This document shows, in pieces, positions 46,601 through 54,213 of a DNA stretch of 64,000 bases. This stretch comes from Lichina pygmaea (Eukaryota > Ascomycota > Lichinomycetes > Lichinales > Lichinaceae). Where the stretch lies: the NCBI GenBank assembly GCA_963422465.1, contig OY730169.1, positions 5,084,001-5,148,000 of the forward strand, in the 5' to 3' direction. The notes under the pieces were generated by a model, which searched no databases, was not told where the DNA came from, and saw only the letters and a program-made list of their open reading frames with translations. Position numbers and translations under genes: made by a program. Each line of letters opens with the position of its first letter. The stretch's first letter is position 1.

Positions 46601-49075
46601 TCAATCGACCTTGCCGTTCTGCCCTCCCCCACCTCCACCGAGCCCGACTCCTCCGAGCAAGCCGTCCTTCCCGTCGAGCTTGAAAAATCCAGTTCCAGAT
46701 CCAGAGCCGTTCATAAGACCCATCGCGCCCTTCCCCCGCCTGATCCTAGTGCGCCCCCAGGTTGCTAGGACGGCCAGCACCACGACGAGGATGCCCAAGC
46801 CGAGATAAGGATGGTTGCGAATCGCCTTGCGGGTTTCCATAAAGACCCTCACAATGCTCGATGTGGTCGACTTGGCTGTGATCTTGGGTGGCGACGCGAG
46901 CACCTTGGGTAGAGTCTCGAGGATGGAGGTCCGAGAAGGCATGATGGAAGCCCCCGAGATCGTGGTGTCCCAGTACTGCCGATTCTGTAAAGACTCACGT
47001 TAGCGGCAGCTTCTTGCACCCATCGCCGGGGGGGGGGGGGGGGGGGGGGGGAGAGGAGGAGGAAACGGGATACCTCTTCGTCGTTGATGATGACCCGTCC
47101 TCCGTCCGATACAGCGATGCCGTAGGTCGTCCTGATCCATCGCTCCCAGAAGACGCCGTCGACCCAGGCGAAGCTAACCTCCTTCCGCGCCGCAGCCTCC
47201 ATGTCGATCCTACTGGTCTTGGCCGCTCGCAGGGCCCGTTGATCGCCGCGGTCCTCGGCCTCTTCGATGCGCAGCTGCTTGGCGTCTCGCAGCTCCTGCC
47301 TCTCGCGCCGGAACGCGTCGGTCTCCCTTTCCATCCACTCGAGCGCGGCGTTCTTGATCTCGCGCTTGGCCCCGACGAACTCATTCGGCCGGTCGCGTGA
47401 CAGGATCCCGAGCACCACGTACCCCCCGTCCATGATCTCCCGGGCGTTGGCTCCGGTGAGCTCCGGGACGATGGGAAGCCACACGGACTTCATCCAACCC
47501 ACCACCTTCCGGAAGTCTCGCATATCCCGCGGCGCAAGGGCCTGGTAGTACGACGGCCGCCCGTCCCTGGAGACCAGAAGACGTGGCCAGGTCGAGATCT
47601 TGAACCGATCGGACAAGATCGTGTCGTTGCTCTTGACGAGCTTTGCGTGGCCGATCAAGCTGAGACGTACGCGGTCCATGGCGGCGAAGTCCTCGGTCGT
47701 CGTTGCGTGGTCGTAGAGGTAGAGGAAGATGACCTCTTCCGTCTCCTCGAGCTTCTTGAAGGCTGCCGCGTCAACGTATCTGACCTCTTCGCCGACGTCG
47801 AGAGCCTTCTGGGCGAAGTTGACGAGATCGCCAAGACCGCGAAGGCCTTCGTATTCGATCCGCTCGCCGCCTTTGAAGTAGATGATGGTCGGGAACGCCT
47901 TGACCTGCACGTCCTTGCAGAGCCTTCCTTCGATGTCGCAGTTCACCTCCCCGACCCGCAGTTTACCCTTCATCTCCCGACCTAGTTCCTCCCAGTTGGG
48001 CGCCATCATTTGGCAGTGCGGACACCACGGCGCGTAGAATTTGATAAACCATGCATCTTGAGTGGTCGTCACCAGGTCTTGGAAACTCTCGGCCGCGAGC
48101 CTGACAGAGGTTCCAGAAGGGTTGGGATCGTCGGAAGGCCTCGAGGGCTCCTCCGTCTTGCCGGTCTCGGTTGGCTCGTCCGCCTTCGTTGGTTCCGTGT
48201 CCGGTGTAGAGTCGGGCTCCTTCTGGGCAATCTCGTTATGCTTCTCTCCGGCCGCAGAACCGGCTGCGGTGTCTCTGTCCTTGGCCGCCGGGGAGTCCGG
48301 CTTTGCGTTTACATCGACGCCCTCGTCGCCCACCTCCGGCAGCTTGACACCGTCCTTTGGCCTCGAACCCGGTCGAATCGACTCCAATATTTCCTCCACA
48401 AAGTTGCTGAGGCCTTGCAGATCCTTGCTGCCGGTATATTTCTTGGCGACCACACCATCTTTGTAAAGGAGGAACGTCGGGTAGGAACCGACATGTTGAG
48501 CCTCGCAGATGGAGCCATAGGCGATACAATCAATCGAGCCAAAATGGAAATTGTAGAAGGGGTGGAAGGCATTTAGCGACGACTTCGAGGAAGGAACAGG
48601 AGCCGAGGTCTGGTTGACGCCGTCAGCAATCATCTATCTCGGCGCGGGGGCCACCACTCACGTAATAAAATTCATACAGCGTCTGCCAAACCGGTGCAAC
48701 GTCACGGCAATGACGACAGTAAGGTGAGTGATGCTTCACGAACCTAGATTAGCATCGCAAGGTTAGCGCCTGGTCCGAGTAGGTACGGAAGCGCCGCATC
48801 AAAAGGCCTCGGGATCGAGGATTCACGACGTACCAGTAGCCCTTACTCGTTTCCTTGTCAAAATCATCTTCCGTTAGTTGCTTTATCGGGGGAACCTCGA
48901 CGCCGTTGAAGATCGTCGACTCGGGGCTACTGTCATCGACGGCTTTCGGTGGTTCGGGGGCAGCAGTTTGAATCGAGATCGCATCCTTCGCAGCAGCTTG
49001 CTCCTGAGCCAGAATCACCGGTGATGCTACTAGTGCTAGGCTCAGCAGCGCTGTGCTCAAAGAAGACAACATCAT
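46601..49075 (-). CDS. Membrane-anchored protein disulfide isomerase-like protein (Eps1-like)
   Basis: ER thiol oxidoreductase with two thioredoxin-type domains and a C-terminal membrane anchor, resembling yeast Eps1 in layout. The signal peptide is MMLSSLSTALLSLALVASPV. The first thioredoxin site is FVKHHSPYCRHC, split by an intron just before Phe. The domain continues GSICEAQHVGSYPTFLLYKD. A Glu/Thr/Pro/Asp-rich linker follows. The second site is FIKFYAPWCPHCQMMAPNWE with KAFPTIIYFKGGERIEYEGL. A long redox-inactive region (DRFKISTWPRLLVSRDGRPS) and charged helices follow. A single membrane span, YLGLGILVVVLAVLATWG, is near the end with a basic cytosolic RTRIRRGKG. An intron near 46990-47070 contains a run of about 23 G. 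Length about 800 aa. The CRHC and CPHC sites are both intact. Confidence 0.85.
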
Positions 49076-50157
49076 GCGATCAGCAAACCAGGACGCCGGT
49101 AGCGTCCCACCCCAGAGGTAGTTCCGTTGGCGGATTCGTCAGACCATACGGTATGCGCTGCGAGAGGTTCTGAAGCTCCTGCCACACCAGCATCAGCTCA
49201 CAGAACCTATCCCTGCCTTGATTTCGAATGCGGTCTGCAACTTACAGTGTGGGAGAGGTCGGCGTTAGCGAGGTGGTGACGTTGGATTTGTCGACGATAT
49301 TCTCGGGACCGCAGGCGTCAGCCGCGGGAACGTGTCTCCTTTGGGATTAGTGCAGCCAGATTCAGATCAGCCGCGGTGAACAAAACTAGCTGGACGGTCT
49401 TGTCAGAGATGAAGCGATTTGTGGGCTCATCATTTTATTGAGTCGCTACGTACGGAGTACATTAGCGTGGATAAGCTAAGCTAGCTGATCAGTTACGAAA
49501 TAGGTACAGTGTCGTGCTTGCAGACTACCCGCGCCAACTCCCGACCACTACTGTAACGAATGCCCTGTGGGCACCTCCTCTGACCACGTCAAAAGGATGA
49601 CATGTCGTCCATTTAAAAAGTTCATCATCAGAGAGACAGACTGAGGATACTCATGATCGAATGTTGGACATCATGTAAGGCTATATTGTCGGCCATCTTG
49701 ATTGCACCAAGCAACAAATATTAGATCATTGGTGCTATTGGGATGAAGGAAAGGGTTGAGGACGCAGAGATAATGAAAGAGGTCATTTAATGAAGATACG
49801 AATAGCCAATTCTATTTAAGGGAGCAATTCTGCTTCTATGTCGTACGAGTACTTGAATGGCCCAGAATCGATGTACGAGGTATCACCCACATGGTCAACT
49901 CTATCCCAGTGACAAGAGAGACATGGAAAGAACAAAGAAGAAATATGGAGTAAAGAGAGACTGCTGGAGCTACAAGGCAATGGCCTGCTCTGAGCGGGGA
50001 GAAGATGATGATCATTGATGCCCTCTCGGACCCGAGGGCTACATGGGCCCCTATCTAGCTGACTAACATTACTGACTAAGCCAGGCTCAGAGACCAAAGC
50101 AGGATATGACTAGAAATGCGCTTGGCGAAAAGTTTGAGGCGAGAACGGAAAACGCTA
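49076..50157. other. Intergenic left of the transposon
   Basis: AT-richer sequence with no recognised gene. The right end of this segment was probably the original 3' flank of homoserine kinase before the transposon inserted, since the bases at 50155-50157 complete a TAG stop for that gene if the element is removed. Confidence 0.5.
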
Positions 50158-51352
50158 CCCGTGCCGAGGAGGTACTCTCGTACCACCCACTCTCTTCGCA
50201 AGCTTCGGTCGGGACACCTTTACTTCGTAAAGGTGTCTATCACCGGGACGCGACGTATCACCGGGACGCGATGTTTTTGTCACGATCAAGTCCGCAGTCC
50301 TATAACTCCGCAACACCACGACTAAATCAAAAAGTAAGCGGCTTATCTGAATCCCCTACTTCTGTAGTATAATACTTGAGATTTTAGAAGTCTACTGATT
50401 TTTATAGCGTTGCTGAGAAACTACCACAGCTGCTAGATCAAAAACAGACCCTCGATAACGAACACTTCAAACACCTATAACTTTGTAGAACAATGACCAA
50501 ATAGTAATTATTATTTGCCCATCTGATTCTAGACCACTTCATCTATCGGATAGTAGCTTGTCATGTTGTCCGGAGCATTGTGGTGTTGGTGGATCATGGT
50601 TGCAATTGCAACACCTGCCATCGTGGCTTTGCCTCGCGCCACTTTGGCTTCCTTTGCCCAAGCACGCTCTTCTGCCACCATAGCCTTTGCTGCCTGCTTG
50701 GCTGCCTGCTTGGCTACCTGCTCTGCTTTCTTTGCCTGAGCACGCTCTTCCTTTGCCACAGCTATAGCAGCTTGCTTTGCTACCTTCTGCTTCCAGAAAG
50801 AGTATTCTGGGTGACGTTCCAGAAACCTATAGGCCCATAGAGCACCAATGGTAGGTGGGGGGGGGGGGGGGGGTATCTCCAGTATAGCCCTGAGAAAGGA
50901 TCACATTGGCAGTGTTGTGAAGCATTGGTGGTCTTGCACATATTCCTAGCTTGTCAAGTCTATCAATATACCAACAGACAGCAAGCTCTTCAGTGACAGA
51001 GAGCTTCCTGTTGACAGGAATGATGTCGTGGCAAGAGGGGGTGCCATCAAGGCGGTTTTGGAGTTGATGTCAGGAGACGTTGAATTCTTCAGCCAGTTTT
51101 CAGACTGTGAACTTCTCACGTGTTAAGATGCTATCTGTAGTATTCTGGATTCAAGTTCCAGTCTCAGTGGATAATTTGGCTATGATGTGGAGAAGTTATG
51201 GTGGTTTGAAGATTGTGGACTCGATCACGACAAAAACGTCGTGTCCCGGTGATACGTCGCGTCCCGGTGATAGACACCTTTACGAAGTAAAGGTGTCCCG
51301 ACCGAAGCTTGCGAAGAGAGTGGGTGGTACGAGAGTACCTCCTCGGCACGGT
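50158..51352. mobile_element. Non-autonomous Tc1/mariner (pogo/Fot1-like) element
   Basis: 1,195 bp bounded by terminal inverted repeats of about 142 bp (50158-50299 and 51211-51352), starting CCGTGCCGAGGAGG one base in from each end and flanked by TA on both sides, the target duplication of Tc1/mariner elements. The outer ~110 bp of the two ends are identical except for the first base. Each TIR carries an 11-bp palindrome (GACACCTTTAC pairing with GTAAAGGTGTC over 3 nt) and two tandem 18-bp copies of TATCACCGGGACGCGACG or a variant. The interior encodes only the N-terminal DNA-binding part of a transposase; the DDE catalytic domain is absent. It is therefore internally deleted and cannot move itself. 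Confidence 0.88.
50529..51130 (-). pseudogene. Transposase DNA-binding fragment with in-frame stops
   Basis: Reads on the minus strand: a Psq-type helix-turn-helix remnant (LAEEFNVS, stop, HQLQNRLDG), then a CENP-B/Tc5-type domain (LSVTEELAVCWYIDRLDKLG, ARPPMLHNTANVILS, a poly-Pro tract from a 17-nt G-run, then GALWAYRFLERHPEYSFWKQ) and a Lys/Ala/Glu-rich tail (AKEERAQAKKAEQVAKQAAK) ending DEVV. The order is that of Fot1/pogo transposases up to the start of the DDE domain, which is missing. Two in-frame TGA codons lie in the first helix-turn-helix. Not functional as a transposase. Confidence 0.82.
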
Positions 51353-52528
51353 TAGACCCTTGTGACAGTCATACCATCGTCTGCTGGTTCTAGCACCTTC
51401 CAGTCGCAGTGTATGTCGTGCGCAGAGAACTTGGCCAGGATATTCACGGCAATGCGGTCAAAGCCGTGGGTCGCGAGAGCGAGGATGGTGGGCCCTGCGC
51501 CAGATAGACAGATGCCAAGAAGACCAGGGCTTGATTGAGGCGTGACTGAGCTGAGGATGTCAGCGAGGCCTGGCACGAGTTTGGTCCGGTACGGCTGGTG
51601 CAGTCGATCCTGCATGCCCTCGTAGATCATTTCCACGTCTGGAGGCGACTGACCCAGCGCCGTCACCAACAGTGCAAGACGCTGCAGGTTAAAAACGGTG
51701 GCCTTGCGTGTGTAAGTTGCCGGCAGCACGTCTCGCGCGGTCGCGGTCGACACCTCGAAGTCAGGGATGATGGCGATCGCCTTGATCTCTTTGGCCCAGC
51801 CAAACTTCCTGAAATGACCGATGTTCAATGGGGGCTCAGGCGGCTTAGAGCCGTTGTACAGTCCGCCCGCCGGCTCCGGCAGCACCTCGCTCAGAGGAAT
51901 CTCTTTCCGCTCCGTATCTGTCGGGTCCAGCTCGTTCAGGTACGTGCCGACCAAGCCGCCGTAGAGCCCGGCCGCGACGTTATCCGGATGCCTCTCGATC
52001 ATGAGACAATAGTCCAGCATTCGAGCCTTGGACAGGCCCAGCTCGGCCACCTCATTCGCCAGCGCAACCCCAGCGACGACGGCGGCGCCAGAAGACCCCA
52101 GGCCCCGGCCCAACGGGATAGGATTGACGATATGGACGTGCGTCTCCACCGGGAAAGCCTCTCGGCCGCAACATCGCAGCACGTAGAATGCGGTGCGCGT
52201 GATCAGGTTCCTATCGGCGCTGAGGTCGATCTGGCCAGCCTTCTCGCCCTCGTACGTAACCACGCAGTTGAGAGACGCATCGGAGCTCGTCACGCTGCCG
52301 TCGACGCGGACCTGCAGCTCGAGCCAGATCGAAAGTGCCAGACCGATGACATCGAAGCCCGGACCTGGAGATGGAGATTGTCAGCAACTTGCGGCTGGGA
52401 AAGCTAAGCCTACAAGAAGTACCGATGTTGGCTGAAGAGCAGGGCACCTCTAAGTGATACGGTATATGTTAGTGTCCCAGAGATCATCGCCAGCAAAATC
52501 ATTGAGGATTCTCACTTATGGTGATCAT
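51352..52528 (-). CDS. THR1: Homoserine kinase
   Basis: GHMP-family kinase that phosphorylates L-homoserine with ATP in threonine biosynthesis. Exon 1 is tiny (52528-52516, MITI plus one base); exon 2 gives KVPCSSANIG; exon 3 starts PGFDVIGLALSIWLELQVRV. The GHMP ATP-binding motif is PIPLGRGLGSSGAAVVAGVA. Later come CLMIERHPDNVAAGLYGGLV, GWAKEIKAIAIIPDFEVSTA, and the C-terminal GHMP motif LLGICLSGAGPTILALA. The stop TAA (51354-51352) uses the TA target duplication plus the first base of the transposon, so the original 3' UTR has been replaced by transposon sequence. The protein end CDWKVLEPADDGMTVTRV looks complete. About 350-360 aa, normal for the family. Confidence 0.92.
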
Positions 52529-53282
52529 TCCTTTTCCGCCTCAGCTGTCCAGGGTTGTCAGCCGGAGGAGTGAGAAGACCAGTCCTCGCTCGCTGCTAGA
52601 GCCAAGTTCACGTGAGAGAAGAGAATTCTCACTGTATATTGGTGTCAACCAGGGACTCGACAGGGAGTCGATGGCCCGAGGATTTGCAGGGGTTCAGAGA
52701 TCAGCCTCCCCCTGAGTGACGGCTAAATTGTTTGTCTGCACGTGACGGTGTGCAGAGTTTTCTCCTTGGTCGTCACTCCTAGATTCTTAGTTAGAGGGAG
52801 ATCAAATCATTCCCCGGCCGGTTGCCGGTTCACTACCCCGCTGGTCGGGTAAGAAGAGAGAGCTAACCATGTCCTTCCGGGTCCGGGTGCTGACTGAGAG
52901 CTGAGTCACACGGATACGGTACGTCTGTACCCGCGCCATGGGGGGGGGGGGGGTTTAATACCCCCCCATGGCACGGGTACTCGTAGAGTGCTTTCGAACT
53001 CGCGAGATACGTACCGGAAGGTAGCTGCTGATGTGTTCCGACGAGCGAGGATAAATGAGGTGACTGTCCGTCGAAGGGTATCAAGGCGTGCAAGGGAAGC
53101 AACAGAGCCACTGTAAGTTGCGCCTGCCAGAATTGCATCGTCGATGTACGAGGCGATAGCGTCACGAGACGAGTCACTGTTCCACTAGCTGACATCCTCA
53201 ATGGTGCTCGTTTCATTGACTGCCTTGGCATCGCCCGCGCGACCACTCCGACTCCGACTGCGACTCCGATTCCGACGCCAAG
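52529..53282. promoter_or_regulatory. Divergent upstream region of THR1 and the complex I gene
   Basis: About 750 bp between opposed start codons. Contains TTCACGTGAG near 52608 and GCACGTGACGG near 52739 (E-box cores), and a strong palindrome at 52927-52980. Confidence 0.5.
52927..52980. repeat. 54-bp palindrome with G-run arm
   Basis: GTACCCG-x-GCCATGGGGGGG pairs with CCCCCCCATGGC-x-CGGGTAC; the mismatch is one base at the same place in each arm. The left arm carries 14 G in a row. The loop is the remaining G residues plus TTTAATA. It lies about 300 bp upstream of the complex I start codon. Confidence 0.85.
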
Positions 53283-54213
53283 ATGCGTGCTTTCTCCCGG
53301 CTCCTCGCCAATGTGAAGCCGGCCAGGTTTTTGGAGCCGAATACACCGACAGGCTTGACAGGCCTCTTGACGCACTCGACACCTCGATCTACGTTACTTT
53401 ACCTGTACGACACGACATTGGAGAAGTTGAAGCCATTCCCGGAATCTTCAGTGTATCGACAGTCCACCGAGGCTCTGACCAGATATCGACGGAGCATCGT
53501 TGAGAGCGTCAAGCCAGAGGGGTACGACGCTTGGTCGGAACGATCCAAGAAGGAGCTAGATAAACACCCCGAGCTTTTCGAGGCTAAGTCTGGTGAGAGT
53601 GGAGGAAGGCCAGGCGCCCCTCTGCTCGTTAAACGGGGCGGTACGACATACGTGACCCTCGAGACGCATACCCCCGACCCGGACAAGTACGAATGGGACG
53701 GCGAGGATGATGCCGGACCGTCGGTTGAGGGAACGAGATCGGCGGAGGAAAGAGAAGACGATTTCCAATCTATATCTCACCAGAGCTTCGGCATGGAGGA
53801 CAAGAACATAGAATTTGAGCCCGAACCCCCACTCGATTCGAATCAGTACGTCTATCGCATCGTGGTGTATCTCATCCGATCATCAATTCATACCATTCCC
53901 ACTACCCTTTCTGGCTTGTGCGGCTACAACCTGACCGATACGTTACTCTAGGGTTGCCGACATTGAAAATCGGATAGGAGCTGGACTCGTCGAAGAGGTG
54001 ATCCAGGTAGCGGAGGGAGAGCTCAAGCTGGTAGAAGCCATGGCGAAGGCCAAGCCGTGAGTAGTCAAGCTTCTCTACCATATCTTTGGCGTTATGGGAT
54101 GCCTGCTGAGGTTCATGTGTTTCTCAAGGTGGGAGCAATTGGAAGAAAAGCCTCTGGATGGCCAATGGACGTACTCTGAGAGGGGCACTCACACCCAAAG
54201 CACGAGTTCTTGA
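53283..54213 (+). CDS. NADH dehydrogenase (complex I) 29.9-kDa subunit, NDUFA5 type
   Basis: Accessory subunit of the matrix arm of mitochondrial complex I. The N terminus MRAFSRLLANVKPARFLEPN is followed by the NDUFA5 core: TGLTGLLTHSTPRSTLLYLY, DTTLEKLKPFPESSVYRQST and EALTRYRRSIVESVKPEGYD. A fungal-type extension (KRGGTTYVTLETHTPDPDKY with an acidic stretch) ends EPPLDSNQ. After an intron, VADIENRIGAGLVEEVIQVA and EGELKLVEAMAKAKP follow, then a last intron and WEQLEEKPLDGQWTYSERG to the stop. About 250 aa, matching the Neurospora 29.9-kDa protein in layout. Complex I is absent from budding yeast, which supports a filamentous fungal source. Confidence 0.9.

Follow-up and report, generated by a model that had tools for sequence, protein, structure and literature searches.

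We compared the locus described here with Trem of Paracoccidioides, a fungal transposon of the Tc1/mariner type. According to the available text of its description (PMC2836289), Trem duplicates a TA upon insertion and has inverted repeats with internal direct repeats, and both features are shared by the element that is discussed below, which is inserted in the stop codon of a homoserine kinase gene, THR1. Trem-like fungal elements contain HTH and DDE domains in the same text; here, both are found in the longer copies of the family. Losses of stop codons have been described for Saccharomyces, and the accessible part of that study (PMC4494051) reports proteins that were extended into formerly non-coding sequence, as may also have happened at THR1. 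Nine of the 54 C-terminal additions in Saccharomyces were due to point changes, and 45 to frameshifts. In the sections available of a review (PMC4302243), deletion of thr1 is stated to be lethal in Cryptococcus neoformans, and a toxic effect of accumulated homoserine is suggested for the thr1 mutants of both yeast and Candida.

The window, i.e. the whole stretch of 64,000 nt from Lichina pygmaea that was analysed, contains the homoserine kinase gene on the minus strand, with a TIGR00191 score of 297 bits (cut-off 168.25; the 14 control genomes for this model were all from prokaryotes). THR1 is the threonine-making gene of the fungus. The predicted product has 350 amino acids and is encoded by three exons separated by two introns, and the gene reads as intact, judging by these predicted exons.

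52516..52528, minus strand: THR1 exon 1, predicted (start and splice site from the sequence)
52423..52449, minus strand: THR1 exon 2, predicted (splice sites likewise)
51352..52364, minus strand: THR1 exon 3 with the stop codon (TIGR00191 match; limits predicted)
51352..51354, minus strand: THR1 stop codon TAA, with the altered outermost base of the element as its third base (51352)

The exon-3 frame has 342 residues, and its alignment to the homoserine kinase model extends to residue 341, which corresponds to position 303 of the 304 profile positions; the present stop is therefore located at the usual C-terminus of the family. The yeast Thr1 presumably has the same number of residues between a shared motif and the protein end as found here. 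For seven homoserine kinase sequences of solved structures, the best matching stretches end at residue 203 of 222 or earlier, and they are therefore uninformative on the C-terminus. A search of the genome (32.47 Mb, eight contigs) for a second THR1 at E values up to 0.001 yielded only THR1 itself.

The minus strand of THR1 closes with ...AGG GTC TAA, with the stop codon at 51354-51352, and the element begins within this codon.

50158..51352, minus strand (transposase remnant): non-autonomous pogo/Fot1-type element of 1,195 bp, with TA ends, inverted repeats and HTH_Tnp_Tc5
50155..50306, plus strand: left inverted-repeat arm, including three flank bases
51204..51355, minus strand: right inverted-repeat arm, including three flank bases
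51353..51354, no strand: TA target-site duplication, THR1 copy, identical with the first two bases of the stop codon
50156..50157, no strand: TA target-site duplication, distal copy, followed by C (the family-standard end)

The original prediction had placed the insertion of a 1.2-kb element at the TA of the stop codon, and this observation is confirmed by the TA pairs on both sides of the element at 50158-51352. Removal of the element and one TA had been predicted to leave GTC-TAG; indeed, the joined flanks with a single TA read GTC-TAG-CGTTTTCC on the minus strand, suggesting an empty site with the stop codon TAG. The ancestral TAG is deduced from the flank alone, because relatives with an empty site were not found. 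Searches with the THR1 frame for such relatives, or for an allele with TAC, gave 12 pattern matches in prokaryotic genome contigs and five in viral contigs, none of which was confirmed; as the collections were prokaryotic and viral, this is a weak test for an empty site. The present flanks being the sole source for the empty site, THR1 might once have ended elsewhere, with the flank altered since and the present end made by the element. We consider this quite improbable: the joined flanks have an in-frame stop at the same place, which is also where the homoserine kinase model ends.

Duplication of a longer target, GTAC, was ruled out by flanks such as CTAC...GTAG (found at the family members L011 and L016). 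Therefore, TA alone is duplicated, and the C that follows it is part of the element.

The two inverted arms have a length of 152 nt each and are 93% complementary, and terminal inverted repeats as in elements of the pogo/Fot1 type (Tc1/mariner group) are thus present. The TA duplication was found at both ends of the THR1 element and at all tabulated tips of the family, with the exception of one end of L025, which has TG instead of TA; whole copies have it at both ends. The frame at 50830-51069 on the minus strand matches HTH_Tnp_Tc5 with 23.0 bits (cut-off 22.2), showing that the transposase remnant has the same orientation as THR1, as had been predicted. Two remnant pieces of the THR1 element were searched for DDE_1, without a match. 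Both domains are present in L020, a longer family member of about 2.4 kb, where they are found in two frames (HTH_Tnp_Tc5, 23.7 bits, cut-off 22.2; DDE_1, 78.9 bits, cut-off 22). Elements with the combination of HTH_Tnp_Tc5 and DDE_1 are labelled pogo/Fot1, and the family carries this label through L020, while the THR1 element has HTH_Tnp_Tc5 only; it is therefore a deleted pogo/Fot1-type relative. A comparison of the L020 transposase piece with PDB chains gave no match at E values up to 1.

Several further features were observed. In the THR1 copy, a run of 17 G is located within the transposase remnant at 50857-50873, where the HTH and the C-terminal pieces are in different frames. The ends of the elements of this family at L019 and L016 are separated by 5.1 kb and 2.6 kb, respectively, and a 313-codon frame in L016 resembles, by eye, a zinc-knuckle-containing gag of a retrotransposon. 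Three palindromic elements of about 39 bp lie between TA pairs (L066, G000 C1:1136888-1136930; L067, C3:773018-773060; L068, C3:1071840-1071882), each consisting of a pair of inverted-repeat tips, which are of the sister TTGG type, and a loop of three bases. A similar tiny near-palindrome, L070 (G000 C7:1006980-1007060), lacks the outermost base at one end.

The element and its insertion are ordinary; the interesting part is the change of the one base on which the stop codon depends. The tabulated family tips read TA-CCCGTGCC or nearly so. A genome-wide search with an end pattern in which the outermost base was free and the 17 other bases had to be standard, so that ends with further changes fall outside, gave 127 sites. 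At 126 of them the pattern is TA-C, and the sole TA-A is the THR1 stop, which was also the only match genome-wide when any base but C was demanded. The exact 17-base tip, CCGTGCCGAGGAGGTAC, has 54 copies in the genome, 49 with TA-C (50 with a slightly shorter tip pattern) and one, at THR1, with TA-A. Of the remaining four, three have the C ahead of the tip with the TA changed or a C added, and one is devoid of the outermost base. C is also the outermost base at the distal end of the THR1 element and at either end of L010, the copy most closely related to it. The outermost base of the family is thus C and not A. In the original prediction, the inverted repeat was taken to start with the A. The A at 51352 does occupy the outermost position, but the family base and the base at the other end of the element are C. 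That A is the normal first base, and that every insertion at this place remakes a stop, matches the TAA of the present sequence, but it is contradicted by the 126 C-tipped sites, which include the distal end of this very element, and has a negligible probability.

The coding consequences of the two bases were compared. The family base C at 51352 would give TAC (Tyr) and 24 residues derived from the inverted repeat, until TAA is reached at 51282-51280.

51283..51354, minus strand: would-be C-terminal tail of 24 codons if 51352 had the family base, followed by an in-frame TAA

When the family tips of the fetched loci were translated in the THR1 frame and followed for 50 codons, 21 of the 41 distinct tips (THR1 included) ran for 24 codons, and the values for the others ranged from 17 to more than 50. 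With C as the outermost base, a standard insertion therefore removes the THR1 stop and adds a tail, and no stop is regenerated. The TAA of today required a C-to-A change at 51352 beyond the standard insertion. The original interpretation is accordingly partly supported: the insertion at the TA of a stop codon, the TAG deduced for the empty site, the present TAA and the fit of the protein end to TIGR00191 agree with it. The claim that the insertion alone had turned TAG into TAA is not supported, as the standard base yields TAC and the tail of 24 amino acids.

A single base could also represent a sequencing or assembly error, in which case THR1 would really have the 24-residue tail. It would be improbable, however, for a mistake to create a stop at exactly 51352, and the end of the protein agrees with the model of the family; we regard an error as even less probable than a former end elsewhere.

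For comparison, the open frames that enter an element were determined by reading outwards from the 41 distinct tips in three frames. The longest by far is that of THR1, with 342 codons and the TA at codon positions 1-2. Second in length is a frame of 146 codons (L006, 2653-3090, minus strand), which enters in another frame and for which no Pfam match was found; some of the fetched loci had only about 200 flank bases, and frames could be traced in these for about 66 codons only.

The THR1 copy was aligned with L009 to L015, seven further copies of which two are incomplete at one end; the other 13 of the 20 fetched loci were left out, being longer, incomplete or more diverged. L010 is nearest to the THR1 copy, from which it differs at 15 of 1,173 sites, and the two are paired in a tree of nine copies with a support of 89/90, which is below the mark for a firm branch. 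Seven substitutions in 1,153 comparable sites are private to the THR1 copy in relation to the seven others. One of these is the change at 51352, the sole transversion among them. Among the seven further copies, 7 private changes of the stop-making type occur in 3,320 C or G sites. From these rates, scaled to the THR1 copy, the expected chance of a stop-making change at 51352 is 0.0013, or 0.004 if the rates are uniform; these values refer to one base fixed by the gene and to a single event, at a locus that was picked after the fact. As a change, the single base that carries the THR1 stop is well supported, and its reading as a repair of the stop is moderately supported.

The order of the change and the insertion is not recorded in one genome, and the A is private to the THR1 copy among the eight copies compared. 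Both points are compatible with an A that was already present on the arriving element or was made during insertion. The stop would then never have been lost, and selection would have acted on which insertion survived. This requires an A-tipped source, but no other A exists among the 127 matching sites, and the closest relative, L010, is C-tipped at both ends. We therefore regard an A that came with the insertion as rather unlikely, albeit clearly less so than the other alternatives discussed above.

The loss of the THR1 stop upon insertion and its subsequent regain under selection by the C-to-A change is the history that we consider fairly probable. THR1 would have ended with GTC-TAG, and a non-autonomous pogo/Fot1-type element of about 1.2 kb, with the standard ends TA-CCCGTGCC..., would have entered the TA of this stop codon. 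Because the family base is C, the stop would have been lost and turned into TAC, and translation would have continued for 24 codons into the inverted repeat, up to TAA. A later C-to-A change at 51352 (on the THR1 strand) would have generated TAA and thereby set the protein end back to the old place. The change would have been retained because a correct C-terminus matters for homoserine kinase, and the tail may have had a cost.

The insertion also affected the 3′ region of THR1. In accordance with the original prediction, the old 3′ flank is displaced by about 1.2 kb.

50091..50155, minus strand: former THR1 3′ flank of 65 bp, between the element and a dispersed repeat
49960..50090, no strand: dispersed repeat of about 130 bp in the former THR1 3′ region

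The dispersed repeat at 49960-50090 has at least 40 other matches in the genome that are 88-96% identical, and it could be SINE- or MITE-like. Apart from this repeat, no duplicate of the THR1 3′ flank was found elsewhere in the genome. Six poly(A)-type hexamers were sought on the minus strand, and TATAAA (50406) alone was found within the element. Fungal poly(A) signals are degenerate, and the hexamer result therefore decides nothing. No Rfam match was obtained for 49000-53500 at the gathering score. As an RNA, the THR1-side repeat folds better than its shuffled versions (z = −3.31), as would a repeat with an inner palindrome, and no function is claimed for this fold.

The outermost C-to-A change may in addition disable this end for the transposase, and the changed end would then transpose poorly. 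It is conceivable, and we propose it tentatively as a less probable extension of the history given above, that selection on homoserine kinase, as an important host enzyme, fixed the change with both effects, i.e. the restored stop and the disabled end, so that the element would be tied to THR1 for good, serving as its stop codon and 3′ UTR.

Of the three stop codons, TAA and TAG offer a TA at which a TA-targeting transposon can strike. With the C-tipped repeat of the present family, such a strike produces TAC followed by residues derived from the repeat. The THR1 locus looks like a case that was caught after the repair, with the repair located within the transposon itself. It represents a single-base test for the fitness cost of a short C-terminal tail on homoserine kinase, and it also bears on how genomes accommodate insertions at gene ends. 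At the level of titles and abstract openings, no precedent for the restoration of a stop codon within the end of a transposon was found in the open literature.

The string CCCGTGCC is absent from the main text on Trem, as far as it was available (PMC2836289). In contrast to the Trem-like elements in that text, the THR1 copy has no DDE_1 match, and one of its outermost bases is changed. Unlike the cases in the accessible part of the Saccharomyces study (PMC4494051), the stop loss at THR1 would have been caused by a transposon, and the protein end would have been set back to its former place.
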